From Pseudomonadales bacterium (GTDB lineage: Bacteria > Pseudomonadota > Gammaproteobacteria > Pseudomonadales > Azotimanducaceae): a stretch of DNA of 64,000 nt. Within the stretch, counting starts at the first letter, position 1, and the number at the start of each line of letters is the position of its first letter. The position numbers were made by a program, and so were the translations under genes. Where the stretch lies: positions 1-64,000 of the forward strand of contig JALZVT010000004.1 of assembly GCA_023300545.1 (NCBI GenBank). The letters run 5' to 3'. The notes below the pieces were generated by a model. That model saw nothing but the letters and a program-made list of their open reading frames with translations. It searched no databases and had not been told where the DNA came from. Shown here piece by piece: positions 39,173 through 56,023 of this stretch.

Positions 39173-39187
39173 TTGGGGAGAGCGCTC

Positions 39188-41734
39188 ATGGAAGTGCAAT
39201 ATCAAATAGCAATTGTTGGCTCCGGCCCGGCAGGTTTGTCAGCAGCCGCTCGTGCGGCTGCACGAGATCGGGAAAACGGCCTCGCGACCCCAAGTTACGT
39301 TCTGCTTGAGGGCTTCGACAATCTGTCGAAGACCATCTATCGGTACCAAAAGGGCAAGCACGTTATGGCAGAGCCCGGGTATTTGCGACTGCGTAGCGAC
39401 GTGGGGTTTGCTGCGGGTAAGCGCGAAGACATACTCGGTATCTGGGATACAGCCGCAGATGACCAGTCGTTGCACGTGCAATACGGCTCGGAAGTGACCA
39501 GCGTGCAAGGCCAAAAAGGCGCTTTTGAGCTGAAACTCGCCAATGGAGCGACCGTTACTGCGGCCAACGTTGTGCTTGGTATTGGTACTCAAGGCAATCC
39601 GCGTCGATTGGGTGTCACAGGCGAAGAACTGCCCAATATTCAATATCAGCTTGATGACCCGGGCGAATACACAAATGAAACCATCATTGTGGTGGGTGCT
39701 GGTGATTCGGCGATTGAAAATGCGCTGGCGCTGGCGGAACAGAATCAGGTTTACATTCTCAATCGCAAGGCGGAATTTGCTCGCGCCAAAGAAGGCAACC
39801 TCAACGCCATTCTGGCGGCGGCCAACAACGACGACGTAAGTCTCGGCTGCTTCTACTCATCCGCGATCGACAACATCGTCGCAGGCGATGATGGCGGAGC
39901 AGGTTTGCGCGTAACTATTGCCACGGCTGAAGGCGAAGAAGTGGTAGAGGCTGATCGTATTATCGCACGGCTTGGTTCAATTCCACCTCGCGGCTTTCTT
40001 GAAGGCTGTGGCATGACAATGAGCCACGAAGGGGCGGATGCGCTACCGGTTTTATCTGAGCACTATGAAAGCAGCGTGCCCGGCCTTTATGTGGTTGGAG
40101 CGCTGGCGGGCTGTCCGCTGATCAAGCAGGCGATGAACCAGGGCTATGACGTTGTCGAATTCGCGAATGACAACTTTGTTAAGCCGGCGGATCACGAGCT
40201 CATCGAGTTCCAGTTTGCGGGACTGCCCTATGACCGAGATGCGGATGAGCTCATCGGCTTGTTCATGTCTCGTATTCCCATGTTTCGGCAGCTCAGTGTG
40301 TTGGCGTTTCGCGAAATGGTGATTGAAAGCTCGCTGTACGTTGGTTTGCCGGACGCAGACAGCATAGAAGATGCGCAACTTTCACTAGCTGACGTGCAGC
40401 AGAAGATCGAGGGCGATGAGACTTACGCGAAGGCCAAGCCGAGCGTCACTAAGGTCATCCCGAAGGGGCACGAGTTTTACACTGAAGGTGACTTTGGCGT
40501 CTCGTTCTATACGGTGCTCGATGGCGAGGTGGTGTTGGGGTCGACAAACTTTGCGGGTGGTGAGCGTCGCCTTGGCCGCGGAGAATTCTTTGGCGAGATG
40601 AGCTTGATTGCGGGTCAGCCCAGACCTGAAACCGCCGTAGCTGGCGACAACTGCATTGTGCTTGAAACGCCCCGTCGAACCATTTTGAAGCTCATAGCCT
40701 CAAACGAGGCCGTGCGCGAAGGCATTGATTGGGTATTTATTGTGCGCGAGCTGCAGCGGCACTTTGCTCCCGCTGCGACCGTTGAAGAACTTCGCCCTAT
40801 CGCAGACGAGATCAAGCAACTCAGTTTTAAAGCCGGACAGCGACTCTGGGAGCCCGGCGATGACAGTAACAGTCTACATTTGATTCGCTCTGGCACCGTG
40901 CTGATTTTCAATGAGGTTGAAGGCAAGCGGAAGCTGATTGCTGAGGAGCGAGCCGGTGAAATGGTTGGCTTTATGGCTATGTACAACCAGAGCTCGCGAA
41001 CCAACGTAGCTGAAGCCTCGGTGCTCACTGAAACACTTGAGATAACAGAAGAGCAATATCGACGTTTGATGAACTTCGATATGGAGCAAGAAGACGTTGT
41101 CGATGCTCGAGCCAGCCGCGATCTAATGAAGTACTCCCAGTGGGAGACGCGCGGGGAATCATCCCAGGTGTTGGAGTTTATGCTGGGCGATGGCCTGGGT
41201 GAGGCGACCAACGCGCTCATTATCGACGAGTATCTGTGCGTAGGCTGTGACAACTGCGAAACCGCCTGTGCTGAAACCCATGACGGCATTTCCAGGCTTG
41301 ATCGCAAGTCGGGCAGCACCATGGCGCATGTCCACATCCCTGTGTCTTGTCGGCATTGCCAGCAACCCCATTGCATGAAAGATTGCCCACCTAACGCAAT
41401 TCATCGGGCAACCAACGGCGAAGTGTTTATTGACGACTCCTGTATTGGCTGTGGGAACTGCCAGAGTAACTGCCCTTACGATGTGATTCGTATGGCGCCA
41501 GAAGCCCCAGCTAAGCCATCACTGTTTAGTTGGTTGTTGTTTGGCGCAGGTTCAGGCCCAGGAGAAGATCGAGCAGCGAAGGGGCCGGAAGGCCAGGTTA
41601 AGAAAGCCCGCAAGTGTGACGCCTGTTTTGACCTGCCCGGTGGGCCCGCCTGTGTGTCGGCCTGTCCAACTGGAGCTGCCCAGCGTGTTAGCCCGAGTGA
41701 CTTTGTGCGCATCATCGAGCGAGATGCGTTGTGA
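39188..41734 (+). CDS. Protein A: FAD/NAD(P) + two cNMP-binding + 4x[4Fe-4S] fusion
   Basis: I chose ATG 39188 (848 residues; GGGGAG seven bases upstream) over TTG 39173. Residues 1-330 are a two-dinucleotide-domain flavoprotein (IVGSGPAGLSAA; second Rossmann IIVVGAGDSAIENA at 166-179) of the thioredoxin-reductase/YpdA type but without the redox CxxC. Residues about 425-510 are a cyclic-nucleotide-binding domain with GRGEFFGEMSLIAGQPR holding the usual Glu470 and Arg479. A second, weaker cNMP domain spans about 545-635. Residues 684-826 hold 16 Cys in four sets (684/687/690/694, 721/724/729/733, 752/755/758/762, 810/813/822/826), like HybA/DmsB ferredoxin subunits. Cytoplasmic; probably moves electrons between NAD(P)H and its membrane partner B. 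Confidence 0.88.
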   Translation: MEVQYQIAIVGSGPAGLSAAARAAARDRENGLATPSYVLLEGFDNLSKTIYRYQKGKHVMAEPGYLRLRSDVGFAAGKREDILGIWDTAADDQSLHVQYGSEVTSVQGQKGAFELKLANGATVTAANVVLGIGTQGNPRRLGVTGEELPNIQYQLDDPGEYTNETIIVVGAGDSAIENALALAEQNQVYILNRKAEFARAKEGNLNAILAAANNDDVSLGCFYSSAIDNIVAGDDGGAGLRVTIATAEGEEVVEADRIIARLGSIPPRGFLEGCGMTMSHEGADALPVLSEHYESSVPGLYVVGALAGCPLIKQAMNQGYDVVEFANDNFVKPADHELIEFQFAGLPYDRDADELIGLFMSRIPMFRQLSVLAFREMVIESSLYVGLPDADSIEDAQLSLADVQQKIEGDETYAKAKPSVTKVIPKGHEFYTEGDFGVSFYTVLDGEVVLGSTNFAGGERRLGRGEFFGEMSLIAGQPRPETAVAGDNCIVLETPRRTILKLIASNEAVREGIDWVFIVRELQRHFAPAATVEELRPIADEIKQLSFKAGQRLWEPGDDSNSLHLIRSGTVLIFNEVEGKRKLIAEERAGEMVGFMAMYNQSSRTNVAEASVLTETLEITEEQYRRLMNFDMEQEDVVDARASRDLMKYSQWETRGESSQVLEFMLGDGLGEATNALIIDEYLCVGCDNCETACAETHDGISRLDRKSGSTMAHVHIPVSCRHCQQPHCMKDCPPNAIHRATNGEVFIDDSCIGCGNCQSNCPYDVIRMAPEAPAKPSLFSWLLFGAGSGPGEDRAAKGPEGQVKKARKCDACFDLPGGPACVSACPTGAAQRVSPSDFVRIIERDAL

Positions 41735-42606
41735 GTGGCAATGCGTTGCAATACGCAGGAGGACGCTATCTCTGGATCGCCATAGGTTTGCTGGCAGCCA
41801 GCTTTGGATTGTATTGGCTGCAGGAAGAAACAACTCCACCCAGTGGTGGCACCTGGCAGGGTCTTACTCTTGGAATTGTTGCTGGGTTATTGATCTTTTG
41901 GCTCAACTACCTTGGCGTGCGTAAGCGTCGTTATGGTCAAGGTGGATCGTTAAAGGGGTGGGTCAGTGCGCATGTCTATCTAGGCACGGCGCTTATCGGC
42001 GTCAGTCTGTTTCACAGCGCGGGTCAGCTTGGTTGGAATATTCACTCGCTGTTTTTCTGGCTGATGATGGCAGTTATAATCAGCGGCATGATTGGCATGT
42101 CTGTCTATCTGTCATTGCCCCGTAGGCTGTCTGCGATTCGCAAAACGCGCAGTCGAGCAGAAATACTCGAAGAGCTCGAAGGGCTTGAGCTTGCGAGTCT
42201 TGAGCGTGCGGCAGACTGTTCCGAAAGTATCAGCATGGCGGTTCGCACGGCGCTAGAGCAAACGCGCGTGGGTGGTAGCGTCGCGCGCCAGCTATTGGGT
42301 CGTGACCGGTCCTCGTTTGAAGAGATGACGAGTGATGGCGGTATACGCCGCAGTAACCAAGATCAGCAACGGCTGCTGCGTTTTCTTTCTGAGCAGGCGA
42401 CTCAAACTCGTGATGCCAAAGAAACAACCGCACTGCGTCATCTCATGTCATTGACGGCGCGGCGGCAGGATCTGTTGCGTCGCGTCCGTCGTGATGTGCA
42501 AATCCAAGGGTGGCTGCAAGCATGGCTCTATGTTCATGTACCGCTATCTATCGCGGTGTTGCTTGCTCTCGTTGTCCATATTGTCGTCGTGTTCTGGTAC
42601 TGGTAA
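41731..42606 (+). CDS. Protein B: membrane cytochrome b-like subunit
   Basis: Encodes 291 residues from GTG, overlapping gene A by GTGA. Five hydrophobic segments: near residues 13-31, 45-64, 80-98, 105-130, and 264-290. Helix 3 has His-x13-His (HVYLGTALIGVSLFH) and helix 5 has His-x13-His (HVPLSIAVLLALVVH), the spacing that binds two b hemes one above the other. Between helices 4 and 5 is a long cytoplasmic, charged helical stretch (about 135-260). It is the likely membrane partner of A, linking it to the quinone pool or to periplasmic cytochrome C. No close named family is recognised. Confidence 0.8.
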   Translation: MSGNALQYAGGRYLWIAIGLLAASFGLYWLQEETTPPSGGTWQGLTLGIVAGLLIFWLNYLGVRKRRYGQGGSLKGWVSAHVYLGTALIGVSLFHSAGQLGWNIHSLFFWLMMAVIISGMIGMSVYLSLPRRLSAIRKTRSRAEILEELEGLELASLERAADCSESISMAVRTALEQTRVGGSVARQLLGRDRSSFEEMTSDGGIRRSNQDQQRLLRFLSEQATQTRDAKETTALRHLMSLTARRQDLLRRVRRDVQIQGWLQAWLYVHVPLSIAVLLALVVHIVVVFWYW

Positions 42607-42610
42607 GCCT

Positions 42611-44473
42611 ATGGATCTCTTGATACGTATAGCGGACGAAGCTGGCGGCAACAGTGACCGCGAACTCACCCTCGCTCGGATAATGCTTGGATCAGCGAAC
42701 GAAGCTGATCTGCAATTGCCGTTACTGGAGTTGCGTCACGCCACTCTAGAGATGGGTCGTGAAGGGCTGATGTTGCGTAGCATCGCTAGAGATGGCGTGC
42801 AGGTTAACGGCAACACCGTGAAGCGCTGTGTTCTGCGCCCTGGGGACCTTATCGAATTGCCAGGTGTGGGAGTACACGTAGAAGAAGCCCCGGGTGGTTT
42901 TGATGCGATGCTCACCGTACGTAGAGCTGCCGGTCATACGTCGGTGTTATCAGCGCAGAAGATGAGTCTGGCTGATACGTTTCTTGCCAAGCGTGCGTTT
43001 GCCTGGATTGGTGCGCTTGTTGTTGTTGTCGGTATGTTTGTAGTGCCGTTTCTGTTCTCGGGCGAGCGAGCGGTTCAGTCGCCAGTTGCGGCGGTGCTAT
43101 CAGACCATGTTTGGACATCTGGAGAATTGCACGCAGCGCATGAGTTGGTGACCGGCGAGAATTGTGCGGGTTGTCACGGCAAGCCGTTCGAGCGGGTACA
43201 AAACGAGGCGTGTGAAGCTTGCCATGGTGCGATTCAGGATCATGTGAGTGCAGGTTTTCTGGCAGCAAACTCAGCGCCGGTTGCCGCGGGTACGCTGGAT
43301 TTTGGCGCGAATGCGAACGAGCGCTGTGGCGTCTGTCATCGAGAGCACAATGAGCCGAGCACGCTGGTCAGTGATGCTGATAGTGACTGCGTGCAGTGTC
43401 ACGCAGCGGATGGTGGCATCGATAGAGGGATTGATCCTCTGGCAGCGGTAGCCGGCTTTACGCCTGAGACGCACCCCGTCTACGAATTTTCGTTACCCCG
43501 TTTCACGCTTGAGAACTTTGCAGGTTCGAAAGATGACGGTTGGCGGATTGACGCGGTTAGCGAAACAGAAATTGCTAACTCGCCGGAAAGCTCGCAATTG
43601 ATCTTTCCGCATGACATTCATCTGGATGTCGGTGAAGTCTCTGACCTGACGAGTGGTGAAGCACTGACCTGCGGCTCATGCCACAGCATGAGTGTTGATG
43701 GCGAACACTTCCTGCCGATAGATATGGAGACGCATTGCCAAGACTGCCATCAGCTAGATTTTGACGAGTCGGACCCTGATCGAAGTTTGCCTCATGCGCG
43801 CTTGAAAGAAGCCGTGCTAGCACTCGAGGGTATGCTGCTAAAGAAATATTTTGACCCCGACGACACGGGAGAGCTGTTTGCGTATCGACGTCTGCCAGAT
43901 CGAGCTGAACGCTCGGCCGGTTGTACAGATACGCCAGATGTTTGTGTAGAGCGCGAACTGAAAGAAATTGTTGAGGCGCAGTTTGCTGGCGACATCGGTT
44001 GCGCAGCTTGCCATGAGTTTGAGCGACAAGACTCAAAAGACATCGAAGATCAGTTCTGGGTTCACCCGGTGAAACTGCCACAAGACTTTGTGCCTGATGC
44101 CCGCTTTGATCACCAAGCTCACCAGGTATTGCGTGACAATACTACTAATGATTTGTTGATCGGTGATCAGGCGTGCGCAACCTGCCACGCTGCGGAAGCT
44201 TCTGAGCGTGCGACGGATTTGCTGATGCCGGCAATGACAACCTGTTACGAGTGTCATGGCGATCGCAGCAGCGCATCACAGGTGGCGCTGGCTTGTATTG
44301 ATTGTCATGCCTATCACCCACGCGGTGTTGGTGACGGTGGGTTGCAGCAGAATGCGTTGATAAACGGTGCTGAACAAGAAACTCAACAGAAAATAGTGCA
44401 TCAGGCCGCGCAGTTGTGGGAAACCTCAGCGCCAGGTGCTGGAGCCGGGGAAGTAGGGGGCGGAACACAATGA
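42611..44473 (+). CDS. Protein C: FHA-like domain - membrane helix - decaheme cytochrome
   Basis: I chose ATG 42611 (620 residues), four bases after the B stop. The frame is open 40 residues further up, inside gene B. Residues 1-105 form an FHA-like domain (LTLARIMLGSANEADLQL, ELRHATLEM, DGVQVNGN, LRPGDLIELPG); core FHA residues are only partly kept. One helix follows (FAWIGALVVVVGMFVVPFLF, about 132-151), then ten CxxCH motifs: CAGCH, CEACH, CGVCH, CVQCH, CGSCH, CQDCH, CAACH, CATCH, CYECH and CIDCH. With no other signal peptide, the FHA part should be cytoplasmic and the hemes periplasmic. Such a direct join of a phospho-recognition fold to a multiheme cytochrome is unusual. Overlaps D by ATGA. 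Confidence 0.85.
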   Translation: MDLLIRIADEAGGNSDRELTLARIMLGSANEADLQLPLLELRHATLEMGREGLMLRSIARDGVQVNGNTVKRCVLRPGDLIELPGVGVHVEEAPGGFDAMLTVRRAAGHTSVLSAQKMSLADTFLAKRAFAWIGALVVVVGMFVVPFLFSGERAVQSPVAAVLSDHVWTSGELHAAHELVTGENCAGCHGKPFERVQNEACEACHGAIQDHVSAGFLAANSAPVAAGTLDFGANANERCGVCHREHNEPSTLVSDADSDCVQCHAADGGIDRGIDPLAAVAGFTPETHPVYEFSLPRFTLENFAGSKDDGWRIDAVSETEIANSPESSQLIFPHDIHLDVGEVSDLTSGEALTCGSCHSMSVDGEHFLPIDMETHCQDCHQLDFDESDPDRSLPHARLKEAVLALEGMLLKKYFDPDDTGELFAYRRLPDRAERSAGCTDTPDVCVERELKEIVEAQFAGDIGCAACHEFERQDSKDIEDQFWVHPVKLPQDFVPDARFDHQAHQVLRDNTTNDLLIGDQACATCHAAEASERATDLLMPAMTTCYECHGDRSSASQVALACIDCHAYHPRGVGDGGLQQNALINGAEQETQQKIVHQAAQLWETSAPGAGAGEVGGGTQ

Positions 44474-46635
44474 GCAAAGCCAAGATGGCAACGGGCATAC
44501 CGACAGTTAGGTCGTCAGTAGAATCTACAAAAAAAATCTCCTGGCCGATGAAGCTGGCAACAGCGGCATTGATCACGTTGCAGCTTGGCAGTTGTGGTGG
44601 TGGTGATCGGGAAGAACCGCTGGGTGTTACTGGTGTTGAGCCGGACTGTTCTGGTGATTGTGGAACCACTCAGGCTGAGTCTCTATCGGTTGCTGACGTA
44701 CAGAAAATAATTGCCCAGGGGGTCTCGGAAGCGCAGGCGCAGGGGGTACTCGCGACTATTGCCGTAACCGACCGAGTCGGGAACGTGCTTGGTGTATTTC
44801 GCATGGGAGACGCTGCCGAGCGAGACATGTTGGTGGCAACTCAGGTTGCAGCAGATGGGTCAGCGGTTATTACCGCAGGTCTTGAAGGCATTCGCCTGCC
44901 AACGCAGTTGTTTAGTGGCGCGAATATTGATCATCTTGGTGCTATCGCCAAGGCAGTGACGGGTGCTTTCCTATCTAGTGAAGGCAATGCGTTCACTACA
45001 AGAACGGCCAACCAGATTGTGCAGGATCACTTTAACCCGGGCGAGATCAACCAACCTGCTGGTCCGTTGTTTGGTGTGCAGTTTTCCCAGTTGGCCTGTT
45101 CCGATTTCTCTCGCCGCTTTACGGGAGCTGGTGCTGAACCAGGTCCGCATCGGTCGCCGTTGGGTCTGTCAGCAGACCCTGGTGGCTTGCCTTTGTATCG
45201 AAATGGCGTGCCGGTGGGTGGCGTTGGGGTGATTGCGGATGGACTATATTCTGTCGATTTTGCGATTAGTGATATTGATTCAGATGTCGATGAGCTGATA
45301 GCGGTCGCGGCAACGTTTGACTTTGCCGCTCCATTGGATCGTCGAGCGAATCGAATCACCGTAGACGGGAAAACCTTTCGTTTCAGTGACGCGACCTTTG
45401 ATGATTTGTTAAGCGAGCCCGCCAGTGCTGATTTTTCCTCGATCGCTGGTGGTGTTGGTGCTCTCATTGCGGTAACCGGTTACACCGATGCGCAAATTCG
45501 ACCAGGCACGGCCTTTGGCTCCCCGGCTTCCGGTATTCGCCCGGCAACAACAGGTTTTTCTGGGCAAGATGCCTTTGTCTTTGTTGATGCCAGCAATGCC
45601 AATCGTTATCCGGCGATAGACGGTACCGACGTTGTTGAACTCGGCGGTAATCAACTCACGCAGACAGAAACTGCGTCGTTGTTGCGTAACGCCCTACGAG
45701 TGGCAAACAGCGCGCGAGCACAAATTCGCCGCCCTTTGAACAGTCAGGCCAGAGTGACTATCTCTGTGGTCGATACCAACGGTGAAATATTGGGCATGGT
45801 GCGAACGCGCGATGCCCCCGTGTTCGGCGCTGATGTGTCATTGCAAAAGGCTCGCACGGCAGCCTTCTTTTCCAGTGCAAGCGCCGCTGATTTTCTGACC
45901 AGTTTGCCGGCTGCGAACTACGTACAAATTACCGATACGGCGGTTAACCTCACCGAGCGGGTTGAAATGGCCAGTTATGTTGATGCATTGCGGGCGTTTC
46001 TGGATGATCCGATTGCATTGGCCAGTGGGGCCTTTGCCTTTTCTGACCGCGCAGGCGGCAATCTTTCCCGACCGTTTTTTCCTGATGGTATCGATGAACG
46101 TGATGCGGGACCACTGAGTAAGCCAGCTGGTGAGTGGAGTCCGTTTTCTACCGGACTGCAACTCGATCTGTCGATGAATGCGATTGTGCAGCATGTATTG
46201 TTTGCGGCGAGTGGCGCGACACTTGCGCCAGATGTTGTGCCCGGTTGTGCGGGCGCGGGCTTTAACCCTGGTCGCACCACTCCCGGAGAGATCGACCTTG
46301 CAGCCATTTCGATCGATATGCCTGCGGCGCTTAATCGCGTCGCTAACGGTTTTCAAATTTTCCCCGGTAGCGTGCCTATCTATCGACAAGGCATGCTGAT
46401 CGGTGGCATCGGCGTATCTGGCGATGGCATTGATCAAGACGACATGATTTCGTTTCTTGGTTTACACGAAGCTGGCCTTGAGACCGGCACGATAAACAAT
46501 GCGCCGCCGGAAATTCGAGCGGACCAGTTAACTCCGCTGGATACGCGGCTGCGGTATGTGCAGTGCCCACAATCACCTTTCCTGGAGGGGGGCGAATTTG
46601 ATGCCTCCATTCAGCGACCTTGTGAGGGCAAATAG
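44470..46635 (+). CDS. Protein D: lipoprotein with two HbpS/GlcG-like domains
   Basis: Starts at ATG 44470 (721 residues), overlapping C. An N-terminal cytoplasmic stretch of about 25 residues precedes the lipoprotein signal MKLATAALITLQLGSC, whose LGSC is a good lipobox for Lgt and signal peptidase II. Two repeated domains follow, each opening with a HbpS/GlcG-like pattern: LSVADVQKIIAQGVSEAQAQ with IAVTDRVGNVLGVFRMGDA, and LTQTETASLLRNALRVANSA with ISVVDTNGEILGMVRTRDA. Each ends in a Gly-rich GVGVIADG or GIGVSGDG. HbpS domains bind heme or act as redox sensors in some bacteria. Role here unknown; being membrane-anchored beside cytochromes suggests heme handling or a scaffold. Confidence 0.75.
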   Translation: MSKAKMATGIPTVRSSVESTKKISWPMKLATAALITLQLGSCGGGDREEPLGVTGVEPDCSGDCGTTQAESLSVADVQKIIAQGVSEAQAQGVLATIAVTDRVGNVLGVFRMGDAAERDMLVATQVAADGSAVITAGLEGIRLPTQLFSGANIDHLGAIAKAVTGAFLSSEGNAFTTRTANQIVQDHFNPGEINQPAGPLFGVQFSQLACSDFSRRFTGAGAEPGPHRSPLGLSADPGGLPLYRNGVPVGGVGVIADGLYSVDFAISDIDSDVDELIAVAATFDFAAPLDRRANRITVDGKTFRFSDATFDDLLSEPASADFSSIAGGVGALIAVTGYTDAQIRPGTAFGSPASGIRPATTGFSGQDAFVFVDASNANRYPAIDGTDVVELGGNQLTQTETASLLRNALRVANSARAQIRRPLNSQARVTISVVDTNGEILGMVRTRDAPVFGADVSLQKARTAAFFSSASAADFLTSLPAANYVQITDTAVNLTERVEMASYVDALRAFLDDPIALASGAFAFSDRAGGNLSRPFFPDGIDERDAGPLSKPAGEWSPFSTGLQLDLSMNAIVQHVLFAASGATLAPDVVPGCAGAGFNPGRTTPGEIDLAAISIDMPAALNRVANGFQIFPGSVPIYRQGMLIGGIGVSGDGIDQDDMISFLGLHEAGLETGTINNAPPEIRADQLTPLDTRLRYVQCPQSPFLEGGEFDASIQRPCEGK

Positions 46636-48615
46636 ATGCGAGTTATATCCAAACTTTCTGCAACCTTGTCGGGCGCCCTGATTTTTGGTGCAAGTATTGC
46701 TGGCGGTGGCGCTATCGCCGCCTTGTCGTCAGCCTCTGCCCACGCGGCTGAGATTTGCTACGAAGATGATCGGGGGCGCATCGTAAATCGCCGCCGGCCG
46801 GGTTACTTGAGAGTGGATTGCCCTCGTCCGGACGCTGAAAATGCGGCTGACCGGGTTGAAGGTTCTACAGCTCGTGCGGCGGGTGCCGGCCGTGTATTTG
46901 ATTACGGTCTGATTCGCGGTCGTAACAAGGCATCAGCTGTACCCTGTGTGAGTTCTGGTCGCAGCGAATGCATCGCAGCAGCGCCAACACTTGACTGCAA
47001 GGGCGGTGCGCAAAATTGCGTCACTCTGGCTATGCCTGATCGCTGGCGTATCGTAGAAAATCTCGATGCGTTTCAAGACTTGGTGGGTAATGATTCCGTT
47101 CGCTATAAGTACCCTTGGTGGGACCCCTACAATCGTAACGTTCTTAAAGGCGACATCCCGGTTAATGATGACGAGTGGTTCTTTTCAATCAACGCGCTCT
47201 CTGACAGCATCGTCGAGGTTCGAGAAGTACCAACGCCGATAGGGGCTTCGTCTACCGCCAATTCTGGTGACATTGATATCTTTGGTAACTCTGATCAGGT
47301 CTTTTTTAACCAGAACATTGCGGCTGAGTTTGTCTATCTGAAGGGCGACACCGTGTTTCGCCCTCCTGATCATGAGTTTCGTTTTACGCCGGTTCTCAAT
47401 ATCAACTATGTGAACCTTGATGAATTGCAGGGTGTTAATGCGCGCCCCAGTCGAGGCACTAGCCGTACCGATCACCATCTTGGCATTCAAGCGGCCTTCT
47501 ATGATCGCCACCTGCGTAATGTAGGTGATCGATATGATTTCGACAGCATCCGAATTGGTATACAACCTTTCAATAGCGACTTTCGTGGTTTCCTGTTTCA
47601 GGATAGCCAGTTGGGTATTCGCCTGTTCGGCAACCGCAACAACAACATTTTTCAATACAATCTCGCCTACTTTCGGCGTCTGGAGAAAGACACCAATAGC
47701 GGGCTGAACGATGTCACGAAAGACCTGCGAAAAGATGACGTTGTTGCTGCCAACTTTTATTGGCAAGACTTTCCAAAACTAGGCTTTGTCTCCCAGGCGA
47801 CCGTGGTCTATAACCGAAATCGGGAAGACAACGAATTTTTCTTCGATAACAACGAATTTATTGCGAGACCGGCATCGCTTGGTGATGAGAGGCCAAGAAA
47901 ATACGATGTGGTCTACTTTGGTTACAGCGGCGACGGCCACTTCGGGCGTCTGAATCTCACCACCTCGGCCTACTACGCCGTAGGTAGTGTCGAGCCGGGC
48001 GTGTTTGAAGATAAGAAGGTTGATATCAGTGCCGGCTTCTTTGCGGCTGAAGCGGGTTTTGATATGGACTGGATTAGAGTCCGCGGTTCACTACTCTACG
48101 GTAGCGGGGACAAAGATCCGTTTGATGACAAGGCGACTGGTTTTGACGCCATTTTTGAAAACCCGGTCTTTGCTGGCTCTGACACAAGCTATTGGCTGCG
48201 TCAGTCGGTTCCGCTTGTTGGTGGTGGGCGAGTCGCGCTGTCTACTCGAAACGGCTTGCTAAACAATCTGCGTTCATCAAAAGAGCAAGGCCAGTCGAAC
48301 TTCACTAACCCGGGCATGTTGCTGGCAGGTATCGGTGCAGACGCTGATCTGCTGCCATCGCTTCGAGTGAGTTTTAACTACAACTACATGCGCTTCGATC
48401 ACACACAAGTGCTAGAGGCCGTGCGCAACCAGGGCAGCATCGATGAAGAGATCGGTCACGATCTGTCGATGAGTCTGATTTGGCGACCACTGGTAAGCCA
48501 AAATATTGTTGTGCGCACCAGTTACGCCCATTTGATTCCAGGCAAGGGGTTTAAAGACCTGTTCCCGGATGAGGATGCGAGTTATTTCATGATGAATCTG
48601 GTGTTGGCGTTTTGA
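46636..48615 (+). CDS. Protein E: predicted outer-membrane beta-barrel
   Basis: Encodes 659 residues, starting directly after the D stop. A signal peptide (about 1-38, cut near AHA-AE) is followed by a soluble N-terminal part with paired cysteines, then from about residue 200 alternating hydrophobic/aromatic strands such as AEFVYLKGD, FRFTPVLNINYVNL and LSMSLIWRP. The chain ends in MMNLVLAF with the C-terminal Phe typical of Bam-assembled barrels. Size and position among multiheme cytochromes suggest a porin-cytochrome role like MtrB, but I see no direct sequence similarity to MtrB and no CxxC near its N-terminus of the MtrB type. Confidence 0.7.
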   Translation: MRVISKLSATLSGALIFGASIAGGGAIAALSSASAHAAEICYEDDRGRIVNRRRPGYLRVDCPRPDAENAADRVEGSTARAAGAGRVFDYGLIRGRNKASAVPCVSSGRSECIAAAPTLDCKGGAQNCVTLAMPDRWRIVENLDAFQDLVGNDSVRYKYPWWDPYNRNVLKGDIPVNDDEWFFSINALSDSIVEVREVPTPIGASSTANSGDIDIFGNSDQVFFNQNIAAEFVYLKGDTVFRPPDHEFRFTPVLNINYVNLDELQGVNARPSRGTSRTDHHLGIQAAFYDRHLRNVGDRYDFDSIRIGIQPFNSDFRGFLFQDSQLGIRLFGNRNNNIFQYNLAYFRRLEKDTNSGLNDVTKDLRKDDVVAANFYWQDFPKLGFVSQATVVYNRNREDNEFFFDNNEFIARPASLGDERPRKYDVVYFGYSGDGHFGRLNLTTSAYYAVGSVEPGVFEDKKVDISAGFFAAEAGFDMDWIRVRGSLLYGSGDKDPFDDKATGFDAIFENPVFAGSDTSYWLRQSVPLVGGGRVALSTRNGLLNNLRSSKEQGQSNFTNPGMLLAGIGADADLLPSLRVSFNYNYMRFDHTQVLEAVRNQGSIDEEIGHDLSMSLIWRPLVSQNIVVRTSYAHLIPGKGFKDLFPDEDASYFMMNLVLAF

Positions 48616-48626
48616 AGGTGTCCCAA

Positions 48627-51600
48627 ATGCATAAATCAATGTACAAATTTAAGACTATGCAGGGTGTCCTGGCTTCAGCCGGTTTGCTTGTTGTTGGACT
48701 CCTTGCAGTTGGTTTGTTCTCAAGCTCGTTCTGGAGTCTGCCGATCGCCGCTTCGGAGGCGTTGACTAAAGTAGAGCGTGACTACGTCATGGCACCGGCG
48801 GCACCGCTTAGTCAGCCGAGTGCGACGGCCAGTAATGACAAGAGCGCCGGTTGCGTGTCTTGCCATACTGATTCTGATCAGAAAACGATGCACAACGCGC
48901 CCGGCGTTGATCTGGGTTGTACTGACTGCCACGGAGGGGACCCGTCACAGTTTGTTCCGCACAATTCTAAAAGTGGCGGTGAAAGCGGTCATGGCTTACC
49001 CAAGGGTAACCAGTCGGATGATTACATCGCGGTGAAAGAGCTTGCGCATATTCTGCCGGAATATCCGGATGCGTGGCATTACCCCCATAGTGCTAACCCC
49101 GAGCGCACCTACAGCCTGTTGAATAAAGAAAGTCGTGAGTTTGTGCGGTTTATTAATCCATCAGACTATCGTGTCGTTGAACTGGGTTGCGGGTCGTGTC
49201 ACCAGGATCAAATCGAAAAGTCGATTCGTTCGCTGCACGCTACCGGGGCGATGTTGTGGGGCGGTGCGTCATACAACAATGGCATTCTGCCATTTAAGCA
49301 GTACATTCTTGGCGAGTCTTATACCTCTGACGGCGAGCCGGCCATGGTAAAAGGCCCGGTGCTTGATGCCGTATTGGCTGCTCAGTTGCAAGACGAGAAA
49401 GGTATTTTGCCGCAGTTGCTACCGTTGCCTGCGTGGGAAACAACCAAAGCGGGCGATGTGTTCCGCGTGTTCGAGCGTGGCGGGCGGAACATTATTAATC
49501 TGTTCCCAGAGACTGCGATTCCTAATTCACTGGGGTTAGTGCAGCGCCTGGAAGAGCCAGGCAAGCCAGATATCCGCCAGTCGAATCGCGGGCCATCTAC
49601 CGGCGCGCGTATCTCAGTGCCTATTATTAATATCACCAAAACACGACTTAATGACCCGTTGACCTGGTTTATGGGCACCAACGATCAGCCAGGCGATTAT
49701 CGCAACTCGGGTTGTGCCTCGTGCCATGTGGTGTACGCCAATGACCGCGACCCACGCCACTCTGGTGGTTACGCCAAACACGGACATACGGGTAAAACAG
49801 CAACCCTCGACCCAACTATTCCCAAAGATGAGTCTGGGCACCCGATTCAGCACAGCTTCACCAATGCGATACCGACCTCGCAGTGCATGATTTGCCACAT
49901 GCACCAACCAAACATGTTTGTGAACAGCTATCTTGGTTACACCATGTGGGACTACGAGTCTGATGCGCCAGCTATGTGGCCAGAAGAGCAGCAATACCCG
50001 ACCAGCGAAGAAATACATGAGGTGTTGGAGCGTAATCCGGAAGGTGCAGCGCCTCGCGGTAAGTGGGCGGATACCGACTTTCTGGAAGCAGTATCAGAAT
50101 TGAACCCAGATCTTAACGACACGCAGTTCGCTGACTATCACGGTCATGGCTGGAATTTCCGGGCGGTGTTCAAACGCGATCGAACAGGCAATCTGCTCGA
50201 CGCCAAGAATAATGTAGTTGAGAACAACGACCCTAAGAAGTTCGATAAAGCGGTACATATGTCATCGATTCACCTTGATGTGGGTATGCACTGTGTTGAC
50301 TGTCACTTTGGCCAAGATAGCCATGGTAACGGCCATATTCAGGGTGAGGTTGCTCTTGCGGTTGAGGTGGATTGCAAAGACTGTCATGGCACTTCCAAAG
50401 AGCTGCCCAACCTTTATGCATCTGGCCCCGCCGCGATTGATGGCGGAACCGACTTCCTGTCGCTGCGGGTACCCAGTGGGCGTCCGCGCTTTGAATGGGT
50501 GAACGGTGATCTGTATCAGCGCTCAGCACTCGACAAAGATCTTGAGTGGAAGGTGAGTCTGGTAAAGAATTCGGTAAACCCGCAACACGCTGACTACAAT
50601 TCGAAAGCGGCGCGTGCCAAAACAATGTCGAAAAATACAGAGACGCAAAGCTGGGGCGCAGATGTCGCTGGCGATGATCTTGCCCACTCCTCTGACGAAA
50701 TGGAGTGCTATACCTGCCATACGTCCTGGACTACCAGCTGTGGCGGTTGTCACCTGCCTATTGAAGCAAACAAGAAAACGGATCGGCATCACTATGAAGG
50801 CGGGTCCAGTCGCAACTTTGCCAGCTACAACCCGCAGGTCGCTCGCGATCAGATGTTCTTGCTTGGTCGACGTGGGCCGGCAAAGGGCGGCAAGATTGCG
50901 CCGGTTCGGTCAACCTCGGCATTGGTGTTGTCGTCGACCAACTCAAACCGGGAAAAAATCTACATCCAGCAGCCGCCCGTCGCGTCGTCTGGCTTCAGCT
51001 CTCAGGCTTTTAATCCGCACTTTCCGCATACCGTACGGCTCTCAGAAACGAAGAATTGCAGCGATTGCCACTTGTCGGAGAACAACGACAACAACGCGAT
51101 CATGGCTCAACTTCTAATGTTTGGAACCAACTTCGTGAACTTTGTCGGTTACAACGCCTGGGTTGGTGGGGACGGTGAAGTATCAGCGGTGCAGGTCACC
51201 GAATGGGAAGAGCCCCAGGCCGTCATTGGCAGTTATCTGCAAAAGTACGCCTACCCTGACTTTTTTGCTGAACATCAAGCGGGTGGTGGTGTATTGAAGC
51301 ACGCCTATAATCATAGAGCGGGCGCTGCAAACTGTTTGCAAATGCGCGGAGAGTATCTGTACGTTGCCGAAGGTAAAAACGGGATGCGGGTTTATGACAT
51401 TGCCAACGTCGCGAATAAGGGTTTCTCCCAGCGCATCGTGACCACTCCCTTTAGTCCATTGGGTCAGGGTACTCAGGTCAAGTCGAAGAATGCGACCTGC
51501 ATGGCGTTGCCTTCCACCCAGCCCATTGCGCCGTTCAAAAACGAAGGCGAGTTGATGCGTGTGGTGAACCAAGAGCAGCCGTTCCATCCGATCTACAACT

Positions 51601-52502
51601 ACGCAGTAATCACGGATTCGCAAGAAGGCTTGATTCTGGTCAATGTCAATACGCTGCAAGACGGCGAGTCGCGCAACAACAATCTCAGTCGCGCCCTAAC
51701 CTGGAATCCGGATGGCCTGTTAGATGGCGTTCGACATATTACGCTGGGTGGTTCAATCGCCTACCTCAGCATGCCTACAGAGATTTTGGTGGTGTCGCTT
51801 GAAAATCCATTGGAGCCCGTTCTAGTCAGTCGTGTTGCGATGGATGATCCACGGGCGAGTGCGCTGCAATTCCGCTATTTGTTTGTTACTACAGGCAAAG
51901 GTTTGCAGACCATTGACGTGACAAATATTAAGACGCCCAAAGTGTCGCCTTCTGTGATTGAGCTTGATAATGCAAAACGGGTATACGTTGCACGCACCTA
52001 CGCTTATGTCGCGGCAGGTGCGCAGGGGCTTGCGGTAGTCGATGTTACGCAGCCGAATAACATGCGTTTGCTGCAAACTTACAACGATGGCGGCAATATT
52101 GTAGATGCGCATGATGTTGTGGTTGCTAGCACCAACGCATCGCTGTTTGCCTATGTGGCTGACGGTAGCGGTGGTTTGAAAGTAGTTCAGCTGACGTCGC
52201 CTTCTTTGCAACCCAACTTCTACGGCTTTAGCCCAGAGCCTAATCCTAAGCTGATCGCTAGCTACCCAACCAAGCGCCCTGCATTGGCACTGTCGAAAGG
52301 CATTGACCGAGACCGTGGCGTTGATGAAACCGGTGGTCAGATCGCGGTGTTTGGTCGCCGCGGCTCACGCCCGCTATCTCGTGAAGACATGAACAAGATG
52401 TATCTCAACGAGTCTGGTGAACCTTGGTATGTGAAGGACACCAAGGGCACGGGCACCGCGGTTCAGGGGCATAGCGCCAAGAGCGCTGGGGGCTCTAGGT
52501 AG
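48627..52502 (+). CDS. Protein F: exported decaheme cytochrome fused to LVIVD-type propeller
   Basis: I chose ATG 48627 (1291 residues; AAGGTG six bases upstream); the frame also opens at TTG 48612, overlapping the E stop. A hydrophobic export signal covers about residues 12-42. Ten CxxCH motifs lie in the first two thirds: CVSCH, CTDCH, CGSCH, CASCH, CMICH, CVDCH, CKDCH, CYTCH, CGGCH and CSDCH. From about residue 890 repeated beta units appear (YLYVAEGKNGMRVYDIANV, YAVITDSQEGLILVNV, YLFVTTGKGLQTIDVTN, YAYVAAGAQGLAVVDVTQ), the LVIVD propeller pattern of surface or exported proteins. The chain has no lipobox. It may be the terminal, outward-facing electron carrier of the cluster, with the propeller as a docking part. 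Confidence 0.82.
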   Translation: MHKSMYKFKTMQGVLASAGLLVVGLLAVGLFSSSFWSLPIAASEALTKVERDYVMAPAAPLSQPSATASNDKSAGCVSCHTDSDQKTMHNAPGVDLGCTDCHGGDPSQFVPHNSKSGGESGHGLPKGNQSDDYIAVKELAHILPEYPDAWHYPHSANPERTYSLLNKESREFVRFINPSDYRVVELGCGSCHQDQIEKSIRSLHATGAMLWGGASYNNGILPFKQYILGESYTSDGEPAMVKGPVLDAVLAAQLQDEKGILPQLLPLPAWETTKAGDVFRVFERGGRNIINLFPETAIPNSLGLVQRLEEPGKPDIRQSNRGPSTGARISVPIINITKTRLNDPLTWFMGTNDQPGDYRNSGCASCHVVYANDRDPRHSGGYAKHGHTGKTATLDPTIPKDESGHPIQHSFTNAIPTSQCMICHMHQPNMFVNSYLGYTMWDYESDAPAMWPEEQQYPTSEEIHEVLERNPEGAAPRGKWADTDFLEAVSELNPDLNDTQFADYHGHGWNFRAVFKRDRTGNLLDAKNNVVENNDPKKFDKAVHMSSIHLDVGMHCVDCHFGQDSHGNGHIQGEVALAVEVDCKDCHGTSKELPNLYASGPAAIDGGTDFLSLRVPSGRPRFEWVNGDLYQRSALDKDLEWKVSLVKNSVNPQHADYNSKAARAKTMSKNTETQSWGADVAGDDLAHSSDEMECYTCHTSWTTSCGGCHLPIEANKKTDRHHYEGGSSRNFASYNPQVARDQMFLLGRRGPAKGGKIAPVRSTSALVLSSTNSNREKIYIQQPPVASSGFSSQAFNPHFPHTVRLSETKNCSDCHLSENNDNNAIMAQLLMFGTNFVNFVGYNAWVGGDGEVSAVQVTEWEEPQAVIGSYLQKYAYPDFFAEHQAGGGVLKHAYNHRAGAANCLQMRGEYLYVAEGKNGMRVYDIANVANKGFSQRIVTTPFSPLGQGTQVKSKNATCMALPSTQPIAPFKNEGELMRVVNQEQPFHPIYNYAVITDSQEGLILVNVNTLQDGESRNNNLSRALTWNPDGLLDGVRHITLGGSIAYLSMPTEILVVSLENPLEPVLVSRVAMDDPRASALQFRYLFVTTGKGLQTIDVTNIKTPKVSPSVIELDNAKRVYVARTYAYVAAGAQGLAVVDVTQPNNMRLLQTYNDGGNIVDAHDVVVASTNASLFAYVADGSGGLKVVQLTSPSLQPNFYGFSPEPNPKLIASYPTKRPALALSKGIDRDRGVDETGGQIAVFGRRGSRPLSREDMNKMYLNESGEPWYVKDTKGTGTAVQGHSAKSAGGSR

Positions 52503-53827
52503 TGAACGCCCTACTGAAAACCTTGGCGCATGCCATGACCGTTGGCGGATTGATGGCGTCAGCGTGCTTGGTGGCGACGAGTTCAGTGTGGGCTGATGTG
52601 TCGAGCATTGCTGACAATGTGCATTATGGGGCAGCCTCCTGTGCGGGAGGCGCGTGTCACGGTAAGTCGAGTCGGCAAGACAACCGGACGGTATGGCTTA
52701 ATGAGCACCGTATCTGGCGTTCGCAGGACTACCACTCGCGAGCCTACAAAACTCTGCTGTCGCCAGCTTCTAAGCTGATAGCGGCAAAACTTGGACTTGC
52801 CAGTGCCCACACCGCAGACATCTGTCTCGATTGTCACGCTGACAACGTTCCTAAAGATAAACGTGGGCCTGAGTTCAGCCTGAATGACGGTGTGGGTTGT
52901 GAGGCCTGCCACGGTGGTTCTGAAAACTGGATAAAAACCCATGACGACAAAGGTAATACTCACGCAGATAACATTGCCAATGGCTTGTATCCATCCGAAC
53001 AACCGGTCGCTCGCGCCCAGCTGTGTCTGAGTTGTCATCTGGGTACGCCGGAAAAATTCACAACGCATCGCATCATGGGTGCAGGGCATCCACGCCTCAG
53101 TTTTGAGCTGGAGAACTTTACAACCAACCAGCCACCCCATTTCTCGGTAGACGACGACTATCGAGACCGCAAAGGCGATTTTGAGGGCGTGCAACTCTGG
53201 CTGAGCGGCCAACTCGAAGGGTCTCGGCAGTTTCTGAAGATGCTCGGCAGTAGTTATTTCACTGGTTCACGGGGCATGCCTGAGTTTTCGCTGTACGACT
53301 GCCAAAGCTGTCATCACGGATTAGATCCGAACGATCTGCGCTGGTATACCGAGCGTCGTCAGCAGGGCATTGAACCGGGTAGCCTGCGTCTGGCAGATCA
53401 TCACTTCCGCACGCTACAGTTAATCAGTCAGGAGCTTTCACCCGCTAAGACGGCGGCACTGAAGAAAGCAATTGATCAACTTGTCCTGGCGGGGCAGGGT
53501 GACCCCAAAGCGATGGCTACGACGGTCACCCAATTGCAGGGGCTAATCGATGAACTGGGCGCACAGTGGCGTGGATTGAGCGTCAGCACGGCAAACGTCA
53601 AAGCACTGCGCAAGCGCTTAGTCGGTGAGGCGGCATCTCGGCGTATGGTTGATTACGGCACGGCAGAGCAAGGACTTTTAAGTATTGTGACACTGACTGA
53701 ATACCTCGGAGAGGCAGACCGCCTCGCCAATTCGCTCGATCAGCTGTTCAATGGGCTGGGTAACGACGAAACGTTTCGTCCTAAGGCGTACCAGCGAGCC
53801 GCGAAAGCCGTACAGGGAAGTTTTTGA
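52502..53827 (+). CDS. Protein G: five-heme cytochrome, c554-like
   Basis: Encodes 441 residues from GTG, sharing one base with the F stop. A signal peptide (about 1-31, cut near VWA-DV) precedes five heme sites: an unusual CAGGACH (C-x4-CH), then CLDCH, CEACH, CLSCH and CQSCH, all before about residue 275. The C-terminal 150 residues are helical without hemes. The pattern recalls cytochrome c554-like proteins, which carry electrons in nitrogen or sulfur oxidation, though no such oxidoreductase is adjacent. A periplasmic shuttle between C and F fits the context. Confidence 0.8.
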   Translation: MNALLKTLAHAMTVGGLMASACLVATSSVWADVSSIADNVHYGAASCAGGACHGKSSRQDNRTVWLNEHRIWRSQDYHSRAYKTLLSPASKLIAAKLGLASAHTADICLDCHADNVPKDKRGPEFSLNDGVGCEACHGGSENWIKTHDDKGNTHADNIANGLYPSEQPVARAQLCLSCHLGTPEKFTTHRIMGAGHPRLSFELENFTTNQPPHFSVDDDYRDRKGDFEGVQLWLSGQLEGSRQFLKMLGSSYFTGSRGMPEFSLYDCQSCHHGLDPNDLRWYTERRQQGIEPGSLRLADHHFRTLQLISQELSPAKTAALKKAIDQLVLAGQGDPKAMATTVTQLQGLIDELGAQWRGLSVSTANVKALRKRLVGEAASRRMVDYGTAEQGLLSIVTLTEYLGEADRLANSLDQLFNGLGNDETFRPKAYQRAAKAVQGSF

Positions 53828-53838
53828 GTGATTGTTAA

Positions 53839-54930
53839 GTGATTGAATTTGCGGCTGAATCCCATCCGGGTAATCGCTATCAGCACAACGAAGATTCGTT
53901 GGGTTGGGTCGAAGAGGCCGGTGTGTGGCTAGTTGCTGATGGTATGGGCGGTCACGCTTGCGGGGATGTTGCTTCTCGCACGGTTAAGCAGTCGCTGCTG
54001 CGAGCCAGCGCAGCAGCGAGCGAACAAGCCAAGCCATCTTCGCTGCCAGAACTGATTTCCCAGGCCCACGCCGCGGTGGTTGCTGAAGGTATCAGGCGTT
54101 CAGCCGAAAACATGGGCAGCACTGTTGTGATGGTTCGAGTTAGCGGTGACAGTGCTGAAATAGGTTGGTGCGGTGACAGTCGAGTCTATCTATGGCGTGA
54201 CAAGCAGTTGGTGCGTCTAACCCGGGACCATTCTTTGCTCGAGCAGTTGCTCGAATCGGGCGTGGTTGATCCGTCTGAGGCATTTGGCCACCCGCAAAAA
54301 CACGTTCTGGTGCAAGCGCTTGGTATTTCTAACCCAGAGCCTGTGCCTGCAAAGCTGCATATTGATTTGGCGAACGAAGACATGCTGCTGTTATGCAGTG
54401 ACGGCTTACATGATGAGCTGCGGGACGATGAAATTAATGAGCTGATAGTTGCTAACCCTGAGCCTGGAGAGGCAGTTCGTGCGTTGATCGCCCGCACCTT
54501 GCTTGGAGAAGCGCGCGACAATATTAGTGTGGTATGCCTTCGCATGTCAGGGCTTGCGAGTTCCCAGCCCCCGCTTAGCGTGCCGCAATTGCGAGCCCGT
54601 TTTGAACGCCTCCCAGGGCGTCGTGATACTGGCGCTGTAGCTGAGGGTTCAGACAGTGTGACACCGGCGCGAACGCCACAGGTTTCCCTAGAATCTGCAA
54701 CAGCAGATGATAGCGATCTAAGCGGTATTGCGCCGGCGCCTAGAGTCGCTGTAGCCGGGAAAATCAAATTGCCCAAGAGAGGGGCTTCTGCGGGTGGTAG
54801 CAATGGCGCGCAGTCTTCTATTGATGCGACGTCTGACGTTAAGCCGACGCCAAATAAATTTGATCGCGAGCTGTTAATTGCGTTGGTCGTAGTAGCGGCA
54901 ATGATCGCTCTTGTCCTATGGATTTCTTAA
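53839..54930 (+). CDS. Protein H: membrane-anchored PP2C-type protein phosphatase
   Basis: Encodes 363 residues from GTG, 11 bp after G. The PP2C metal motifs are present in order: HNEDSLGW, VADGMGGHACGDVAS, MGSTVVMV, WCGDSRVYLW, LLLCSDGLHDEL and DNISVVCL. A low-complexity linker of about 100 residues leads to one C-terminal membrane helix (LLIALVVVAAMIALVLWIS), so the phosphatase is cytoplasmic and tethered. It would remove phosphates from Ser/Thr; FHA domains nearby (C, I and the divergent gene) read phosphothreonine. No Ser/Thr kinase gene is seen in the window. Confidence 0.92.
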   Translation: MIEFAAESHPGNRYQHNEDSLGWVEEAGVWLVADGMGGHACGDVASRTVKQSLLRASAAASEQAKPSSLPELISQAHAAVVAEGIRRSAENMGSTVVMVRVSGDSAEIGWCGDSRVYLWRDKQLVRLTRDHSLLEQLLESGVVDPSEAFGHPQKHVLVQALGISNPEPVPAKLHIDLANEDMLLLCSDGLHDELRDDEINELIVANPEPGEAVRALIARTLLGEARDNISVVCLRMSGLASSQPPLSVPQLRARFERLPGRRDTGAVAEGSDSVTPARTPQVSLESATADDSDLSGIAPAPRVAVAGKIKLPKRGASAGGSNGAQSSIDATSDVKPTPNKFDRELLIALVVVAAMIALVLWIS

Positions 54931-54976
54931 TGAACTATTTATTGTGTAACGATATGAAAACGAATGGAGAAAAACA

Positions 54977-56023
54977 GTGAGCGAGCCTGGTATTCGATTT
55001 GCGCTCAGTAACGACGCAGGCGCGACGGTGTTGGAGTTTGGTGCGACGGTGCTTGTGGGTCGTGCGCCATCTGCGGAACACCAGGGTGTTTCCTATGAGG
55101 TGACGTTGCAGCTTGAGCAATCGACGGTGTCGACCAATCATGCAACGCTTGCCCCTGCGGATGGTGGGCTACTAGTGACTGATTTGGGTTCCACCAACGG
55201 CACCTTTATTAACCATCAACGCCTGAACGGCCCAACAATGGCCTGCAATGGTGACGAGATTCGTTTTGACACCCATACATTGACGCTTGAAGATCGCGAA
55301 GCTTCTGCGCCGGCGACGGACGATGCAGCGCCAATAGATGCTGGAGCGACCGTGATCCGAGCGGCTGTTCCCGCGCCCGCACCCGCAGGGCAGCCCGACG
55401 ACAGTGATCTCGGCAATGCTGCGATGGGCAAAACCATGATGATGGCCGTCAATAAGAATTTGCCGCGGTCATGGCAGGACGATAGCCCGGGTACGATTAT
55501 TCTTAAGCCTGGCGAGGCGAACGATCAGTTTGCTATTGATGCGGATGCTCTGGCCGCACAGTTCACAGACCCGACGCTTGTGTTGCTCAGTGACGCAGGT
55601 GAGGGGCAACCGATATCACTGAAAAGTGACGGTGAGTTAAATTTTTGGAATATCGGCAAAAACAGCGCGAAGCACGAGCTGTCAATTGTGTTGGAAGATC
55701 CGAGCGTTTCGGATTTTCATGCAAAACTGGTTCGGCGTGGCGCAAAGTGGTCGGTTCACGATCAGATGTCGACAAACAAAACCCGTGTGAACGGTGAGAT
55801 AGTGCTGAAGCGCTTTCTGAATTCTAAAGACGTCATTGAATTTGGGGGCACCAAAGCGCTCCTGTTGATTCCTGGCGGAACTGCCAAATCTGCCAAGACA
55901 AAGTCAGGTAAAGGTAAGTCTGTTGGGAACGGTGGCGGAAGTGCCGTGCGCTGGGTATTAATTGCTGCGGTAATTGCCGTCGCTGCAGGTGCGGGTTGGT
56001 TCGTTGTCAACGGCGGTATGTGA
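54977..56023 (+). CDS. Protein I: tail-anchored protein with two FHA domains
   Basis: Encodes 348 residues from GTG with GGAG ten bases upstream. FHA 1 (about 20-110) keeps the core: LVGRAPSAEHQ, STVSTNHATL and DLGSTNGTFINHQRL. FHA 2 (about 205-300) is weaker: IGKNSAKHEL, DPSVSDFHAKLV and STNKTRVNGE, with Lys for the usual Gly in NGT. A Lys/Gly linker leads to a final helix (WVLIAAVIAVAAGAGWFVV) ending four residues from the C-terminus, a tail anchor. It may gather phosphorylated partners at the membrane beside protein C. It is 46 bp after the phosphatase and ends the cluster. Confidence 0.85.
   Translation: MSEPGIRFALSNDAGATVLEFGATVLVGRAPSAEHQGVSYEVTLQLEQSTVSTNHATLAPADGGLLVTDLGSTNGTFINHQRLNGPTMACNGDEIRFDTHTLTLEDREASAPATDDAAPIDAGATVIRAAVPAPAPAGQPDDSDLGNAAMGKTMMMAVNKNLPRSWQDDSPGTIILKPGEANDQFAIDADALAAQFTDPTLVLLSDAGEGQPISLKSDGELNFWNIGKNSAKHELSIVLEDPSVSDFHAKLVRRGAKWSVHDQMSTNKTRVNGEIVLKRFLNSKDVIEFGGTKALLLIPGGTAKSAKTKSGKGKSVGNGGGSAVRWVLIAAVIAVAAGAGWFVVNGGM

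Follow-up and report, generated by a model that had tools for sequence, protein, structure and literature searches.

A conserved multiheme cytochrome gene cluster with a PCC4-related inner module and a different outer module

PCC4 designates putative, predicted porin-cytochrome clusters that have been proposed in iron oxidisers for electron uptake (He et al. 2017, PMC5566968). In the passages of that paper used here, the inner-membrane protein of PCC3 and PCC4 carries two WX3HX13H motifs and an SGXXG motif, PCC4 has a 4-heme, a 5-heme and a 10-heme cytochrome, all periplasmic, and, as described there, no extracellular one, and in PCC4 Subgroup II an iron-sulfur (Fe-S; PF13247) gene lies upstream of the inner-membrane protein gene. 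A legend in the same paper models PCC4 as delivering electrons to quinone from a donor outside the cell; for PCC3 it gives extracellular and periplasmic cytochromes with a median of 34 and 21 hemes. The Ext system of Geobacter has a Rieske/cytochrome b pair, and loss of its porin-like ExtI affects selenite and tellurite conversion, not Fe(III) citrate reduction, according to the sections cited (PMC5877670). Here we analyse a nine-gene cluster (A to I, positions 39188-56023, plus strand) in a 64,000-nucleotide stretch, hereafter the window, of a Pseudomonadales genome (assembly GCA_023300545.1, contig JALZVT010000004.1). Sequence comparison relates its inner half (A-B-C, and G) to the PCC4 proposal, whereas the outer half, D-E-F, differs. 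The cluster may encode an electron pathway across the envelope, linked to reduced nicotinamide adenine dinucleotide phosphate (NADPH) and regulated by cyclic nucleotides, that feeds a specific outer oxidoreductase, F; we regard this reading as evenly balanced between right and wrong.

The nine-gene set is real and conserved, and it is uncharacterised within the literature searched. All nine open reading frames (ORFs) listed by an earlier sequence-only reading are present on the plus strand, with the same gaps of -4 to +46 bp for the starts used. That the genes travel together was borne out in 91 loci bearing F, among which 65 extend at least 9 kb upstream, 70 at least 2.5 kb and 58 at least 4.5 kb downstream. 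D and E stand beside F in 65/65 loci, A, B and C are present in 62 of these 65, and the strict order A-B-C-D-E-F is kept in 53. The genomes of the three loci lacking A-B-C (L063, L067 and L082) carry a B gene at another place. In all, five genomes, each represented by a locus without A-B-C, were searched for B, which turned up elsewhere in four; the miss is the genome of L074. Downstream, G falls within the locus in 48/70 and immediately 3′ of F in 42. No additional neighbour family was found in more than seven loci, upstream of A being hardly sampled since most loci reach little past A. The best candidate for an extra neighbour is a small secreted protein encoded between C and D in six alphaproteobacterial loci (e.g., L052 5701-6150).

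A scan of named genomes gave 182 relatives of F, the best 80 of which were kept as loci; two of the loci (L029 and L030) are contigs of one genome, and named-genome loci may overlap the other genome samples. The record titles of these best 80 point mostly to alpha-, beta- and gammaproteobacteria, several indicating lakes, ocean water or groundwater, and isolates among the carriers include Chromatocurvus halotolerans (DSM 23344), Dokdonella immobilis (CGMCC 1.7659), Colwellia echini and Tahibacter aquaticus. Five loci (L069, L090, L093, L104 and L106) come from metagenome-assembled genomes whose titles name Klebsiella pneumoniae or Bordetella parapertussis; these look like misnamed environmental bins. 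The source genome has one F gene. Among 58 related genomes, full F occurs in 11 (source included), all of which have B; matches to the propeller repeat only (G051, G052, G053 and G025:C83) were not counted as F. B itself (E 1.3e-18 or better, which omits G009 at 7.4e-11) is found in 13 of the 58. The two carriers of B without full F are G034, where A-B-C-D-E runs up to the contig end (L157), and G023, where A-B-C is followed by 5-heme and barrel genes (L158). In an even sample of the phylum, F is found in 6/349 genomes (E 1e-20, source included), each of them with B, and in an even sample of the class in 13/369 (E 1e-50, source included).

The inner module begins with A (39188-41734, start at 39173 or 39188). 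By Pfam, NCBIfam and motif counts it joins an NAD(P)H/flavin adenine dinucleotide (FAD) part, TrxR/YpdA-like, to two cyclic-nucleotide-binding domains and a four-[4Fe-4S] ferredoxin domain. Pfam matches are Pyr_redox, two cNMP_binding stretches and 4Fe-4S, including the PF13247 Fe-S domain (E 9.2e-11) as part of the larger protein; the NCBIfam YpdA-type model scores 107 bits, below its cut-off of 340. Across 68 A sequences the NADPH-type residues R193, R199 and K201 are kept in 67, 66 and 68, and all 16 Cys for the four [4Fe-4S] clusters are kept in every one. The FAD part has no conserved Cys pair in these sequences, and a thioredoxin-type disulfide reductase was therefore rejected as the identity of A. 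The phosphate-binding cassette of cyclic-nucleotide-binding domains is defined by a Glu and an Arg. In the first cassette Glu is kept in 66/68 and Arg in 68/68; in the second, Arg in 68/68 and Glu in 52/68. A keeps the cyclic-nucleotide-binding signature, and binding of such a ligand is predicted.

Gene B (41731-42606) has no Pfam or NCBIfam match. Alignment and comparison with PCC4-type proteins identify it as a putative di-heme-b inner-membrane protein with two WX3HX13H motifs and SGXXG, the residues W77-H81-X13-H95, S118-G119..G122 and W265..H269-X13-H283, and with them the four HX13H histidines, being invariant in 24/24 aligned members. Gene C (42611-44473, ORF open from 42491) encodes a degenerate FHA-like N-terminus, one hydrophobic segment at the N-terminus rather than a lipoprotein signal, and 10 CxxCH sites. 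Pfam finds multiheme families in it, among them PF22113, a domain of the outer-membrane cytochromes MtrC and MtrF (44.8 bits, cut-off 30), which matches 6/23 C proteins. Pfam FHA is found in 11 and YscD_cpl in 14 of the 23 C members, neither in the window's C: there Pfam FHA gives no match, the longer ORF gives a sub-threshold YscD_cpl, and with the trimmed ORF neither model appears at E 0.01. The phosphothreonine pocket of FHA domains is defined by Arg, Ser and Asn. Among 65 C sequences the Arg position holds R in 43 and is S in the window, and the Ser position, taken three before His, holds A in 30, P in 10 and S in 5. The FHA fold of C is likely from these alignments, and the phosphothreonine-binding pocket appears not to be kept. 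In line with the sequence-only reading, A, B and C look like a path from NADPH through Fe-S and heme b to a decaheme cytochrome.

The count of 25 CxxCH-type sites given earlier for the cluster holds as 24 CxxCH plus one CX4CH: 10 in C, 10 in F, and four with the single CX4CH in G (52502-53827), which by Pfam (Cytochrome_C554) and motif counts is a cytochrome c554-type pentaheme protein. The rest of the window has 3 CxxCH in 43 largely non-overlapping ORFs (14,790 amino acids), so the density of heme sites in the cluster is not due to chance. A Zn-ribbon protein at 60700-61236 has two CxxCH, which are probably zinc sites rather than hemes. Counting relatives whose alignment covers 70% or more of the query, the ten sites of C recur in 64/64, G has four plus CX4CH in 56/56, and F has 10 in 87/90, the remaining three having 7, 8 and 9. 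By the same measure the mean identity to the window protein is 0.61 for F vs 0.27-0.49 for A-E and G. F is the most conserved subunit in the loci examined, and it is still at 60-69% identity in class members sampled regardless of F.

The outer module begins with D (44470-46635, ORF open from 44416), which has three HbpS-like stretches by Pfam and PDB sequence matches. A loose lipobox-like pattern is present in 19/23 relatives, and D is probably a lipoprotein. It was also considered as a heme protein by motif and rejected, with only four Cys and no His above the conservation cut-off. E (46636-48615) had been predicted to be an outer-membrane barrel, and the structure model agrees, giving a beta-barrel of about 18 strands as counted by eye (predicted local distance difference test, pLDDT, 66.9; predicted template modelling score 0.64). 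Foldseek and structural alignment place AlgE closest (Z 21.9, root-mean-square deviation 4.0, 353 residues aligned), followed by OprD-family channels with Z about 20. E has no Pfam match, neither E nor F attains the cut-off of any NCBIfam model, and an E profile gave no usable match among PDB sequences (best E 0.57). F (48612-52502) is a predicted secreted decaheme cytochrome, with a signal-like N-terminus, ten hemes and an LVIVD beta-propeller by Pfam, motif counts and predicted structure. No lipobox-like pattern was found in any of 24 F proteins. The best NCBIfam match is ExtM (E 7.6e-18), at 64.1 bits vs a cut-off of 800. Against PDB sequences, F as a single sequence had no match at 0.1 and its profile none that was usable (best E 0.91). 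Its heme-region model matched no PDB fold at E 0.001 (best 2.4) and reached no Z of at least 2 among 128 chains, which does not by itself prove a new fold.

The inner half resembles PCC4 in several features. The window's B has the SGXXG and both WX3HX13H motifs of the PCC4 inner-membrane protein, a PF13247 Fe-S domain is encoded upstream of B (within A) as in Subgroup II, and a decaheme cytochrome (C) and a G-like cytochrome occur in both, as far as the cited description goes (PMC5566968). The term "undescribed" used in the sequence-only reading does not hold for this half, which is related to the PCC4 inner-membrane protein, Fe-S protein and decaheme cytochrome. In the same comparison, the cytochromes of the window have 10, 10 and 4+1 hemes vs 4, 5 and 10, and F (10 hemes plus propeller) and the HbpS-like D occupy the place of the 5-heme and porin genes of PCC4. 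A also differs by uniting FAD, cyclic-nucleotide and Fe-S parts in one protein. The gene set is not named in those parts of the literature that were searched; the supplements of He et al. list further clusters, and a D-E-F cluster may already be tabulated there.

A closer comparison can be made with L153, which encodes a barrel, an NAD-binding/2Fe-2S oxidoreductase, a tetraheme cytochrome, a cyclic-nucleotide/Fe-S protein, an inner-membrane protein and a decaheme cytochrome. It fits the Subgroup II description available to us in PMC5566968, save for a 5-heme gene missing on the short contig, the assignment being by gene content and not by the sequences of the paper. Its decaheme cytochrome aligns with the C profile (99.6%, E 1.2e-23) and its membrane protein with B (hhalign 97.7%, E 1.7e-12). 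In contrast, the E profile has no detectable similarity to the PCC4-type barrels of L153 (0.4%) and L158 (0.3%), which are 43% identical to each other.

The source genome itself contains a second cluster. Contig C118 (L143) ends in another A-B-C, with A 52% and B 41% identical to those of the window, and contig C6 (L171) starts with the rest of a decaheme gene and continues with a 5-heme, a barrel and a 4-heme gene. An identical stretch of 99 bases is common to the two contig ends; with 5 and 6 CxxCH on the pieces and one of them inside this overlap, the decaheme protein has 10. The L171 barrel is related to that of L158 (32%, E 1.1e-33), and the joined cluster, with 10, 5 and 4 hemes and a barrel, fits the PCC4 description in the passages cited (PMC5566968). 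In one FastTree tree, built from 76 A+B pairs with L153 as root, the second A-B pair of the source genome is sister to the window's (support 1.0), and L158 lies beside L058 (0.999) within the pairs linked to D-E-F. On these placements, the A-B-C hub appears to have acquired PCC4-type outer genes as new partners on two or more occasions, judging from this one tree.

Other systems stand further away. PCC3-like loci of the relatives encode a distantly related inner-membrane protein (E values against the B model of about 1e-9 to 1e-11), but their cytochromes have 9-35 hemes, mostly at least 21, vs 10, 10 and 5 in the window. PCC3-like clusters in which a cytochrome may have up to 35 hemes occur at L160, L161 and L154, whose genomes belong to the same family or phylum; that of L160, G026, also has F. 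MtrCAB, MtoAB and PioAB share the layout of a periplasmic decaheme cytochrome with an outer-membrane barrel, and PF22113 matches C. However, C scores 28.2 bits vs a cut-off of 192.2 on the DmsE-type decaheme model TIGR03508, and E matches AlgE/OprD best; MtrB is not among the 50 matches listed for E and is not excluded thereby. The Geobacter ExtHIJKLMNOPQS cluster likewise combines a barrel with several multiheme cytochromes, as described in the sections cited (PMC5877670), and has the partial F-ExtM match; its inner module differs from A-B.

Co-conservation, the cofactor motifs, the barrel model and the relation of the hub to PCC4 are read from the sequences directly. We infer NADPH as donor, control by ligand, the order of carriers, the outward direction and F as catalyst. 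A would take electrons from NADPH via FAD and its four [4Fe-4S] clusters, access being set by cyclic-nucleotide binding; B would move them over the inner membrane on two b hemes; and C, anchored and with 10 hemes, would conduct them through the periplasm, aided by the five hemes of G. The A-B-C hub at the inner membrane would in this way feed the outer module D-E-F. The chain would end at F, an oxidoreductase with 10 hemes and a propeller that most probably reduces a specific substrate. This substrate may reach F at or through barrel E, and D would be a partner attached to the membrane. Because E resembles an AlgE/OprD substrate channel, it cannot be taken as established that the pathway extends to the cell surface, as the sequence-only reading proposed for a route from cytoplasmic NAD(P)H or quinone, and F could act in the periplasm.

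Several observations weigh against an outward pathway to a specific enzyme F. PCC4 is modelled as uptake to quinone in the legend cited (PMC5566968), so the window's pathway could run either way. The second cyclic-nucleotide cassette of the window's A has Phe in place of Glu. The F model (residues 60-898) is of moderate confidence (pLDDT 71.2) with no active site visible, and a barrel of 18 strands does not necessarily enclose a heme wire. The lead of F in conservation is inflated, because most loci were chosen by F similarity. Strong B matches (E 1e-60 or better) occur in 10/349 phylum genomes, and apart from the six F carriers four have no F match: G208 has A to E followed by the contig end, G058 has A-B-C only, and G090 and G207 have A and B fused and a C with 9 sites. 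The likelihoods that we attach to this reading and to the alternatives below overlap and need not sum to one.

Electrons could instead run inward, F or its partners accepting them from Fe(II), Mn(II) or another reduced donor and A-B-C passing them to quinone or uphill to NADP+. The source genome also holds a PCC4-type cluster, and the inner module is related to PCC4, proposed for uptake in iron oxidisers as cited (PMC5566968). With its conserved NADPH-binding signature, A is more simply explained by reductive flow. Several of the named carriers are also isolates of genera known as heterotrophs; we consider uptake unlikely. Alternatively, F or G, in or on barrel E, could pass electrons non-specifically to minerals, humics or electrodes. 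The layout of a barrel, three multiheme proteins and an inner-membrane heme-b protein is that of porin-cytochrome systems in the cited description (PMC5566968), the sister hub precedes PCC4-type outer genes, and C exceeds the PF22113 cut-off, as do only a minority of C proteins. Yet the best folds for E are substrate channels, its profile finds neither PCC4-type barrel, the F proteins lack a lipobox-like pattern, and F appears more constrained than expected of a non-specific surface cytochrome. A general outer-membrane conduit is in our view quite improbable. An Ext-like arrangement, in which E imports an oxyanion or similar solute that F reduces in the periplasm, would be a special case of the NADPH-linked pathway feeding F. 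It agrees with ExtM as the best match of F, with the channel-like E and with the selenite/tellurite effect of ExtI loss in the sections cited. The low ExtM score, 64 bits vs 800, and the Rieske/cytochrome b pair in place of A-B (PMC5877670) stand against it, and we hold it doubtful.

Regulation by phosphorylation, which the sequence-only reading considered built in, needs to be narrowed. H (53839-54930) is a PP2C Ser/Thr phosphatase by Pfam, with 182 bits on the NCBIfam Stp1-type model, below the cut-off of 230, and I (54977-56023) is a double-FHA protein with two FHA stretches in Pfam; both have a C-terminal hydrophobic segment. The two genes exist as read, but both are present in only 17/58 F loci with the required downstream length, and the phosphothreonine residues of C are mostly missing. 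Phosphorylation as a core part was rejected on the locus count; the distribution points to a lineage-specific layer, added as an accessory in some of the loci. A Ser/Thr kinase is encoded close to A at the second cluster of the source genome (L143), at L162 and at L023; at L143 a three-FHA protein accompanies it. The cyclic-nucleotide-binding signature of A is, by sequence conservation, the better-conserved regulatory feature. A class III nucleotide cyclase domain protein (57545-58861, plus strand) is encoded 1.5 kb downstream of the cluster (PF00211, E 3.5e-5, 23.9 bits, cut-off 21.9); it is a possible source of the ligand of A and a candidate, not an established, member of the cluster. The gene hemE (58874-59899) starts 12 bp past it. 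At two other loci an A-B fusion of about 1,120 amino acids (L151 3052-6423 and L152 7350-10706) lies near a 9-heme C-like protein, with no D-E-F on the stretch seen.

Taken further, the cluster might represent an electron export system, gated by cyclic nucleotides and so far unrecognised, in free-living Proteobacteria, several of them from genera known as aerobic. In it, a single exchangeable hub fed by NADPH would drive either a PCC4-type outer conduit or D-E-F, and F would be a new class of multiheme enzyme for specific reduction at the outer membrane. We offer this extension tentatively, as something that could be so and probably is not. The sister hub in the source genome allows a test of the hub as a plug-in unit. 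F is present in 13/369 genomes of the class, and the named carriers of its relatives, some of them cultured strains, are spread over the alpha-, beta- and gammaproteobacteria; to our knowledge, the bacteria carrying F are not known for extracellular electron transfer. If the reading is true, such bacteria invest about 25 hemes in a regulated electron outlet, and a direct link of NADPH and cyclic nucleotides to a pathway of this kind would be unusual.

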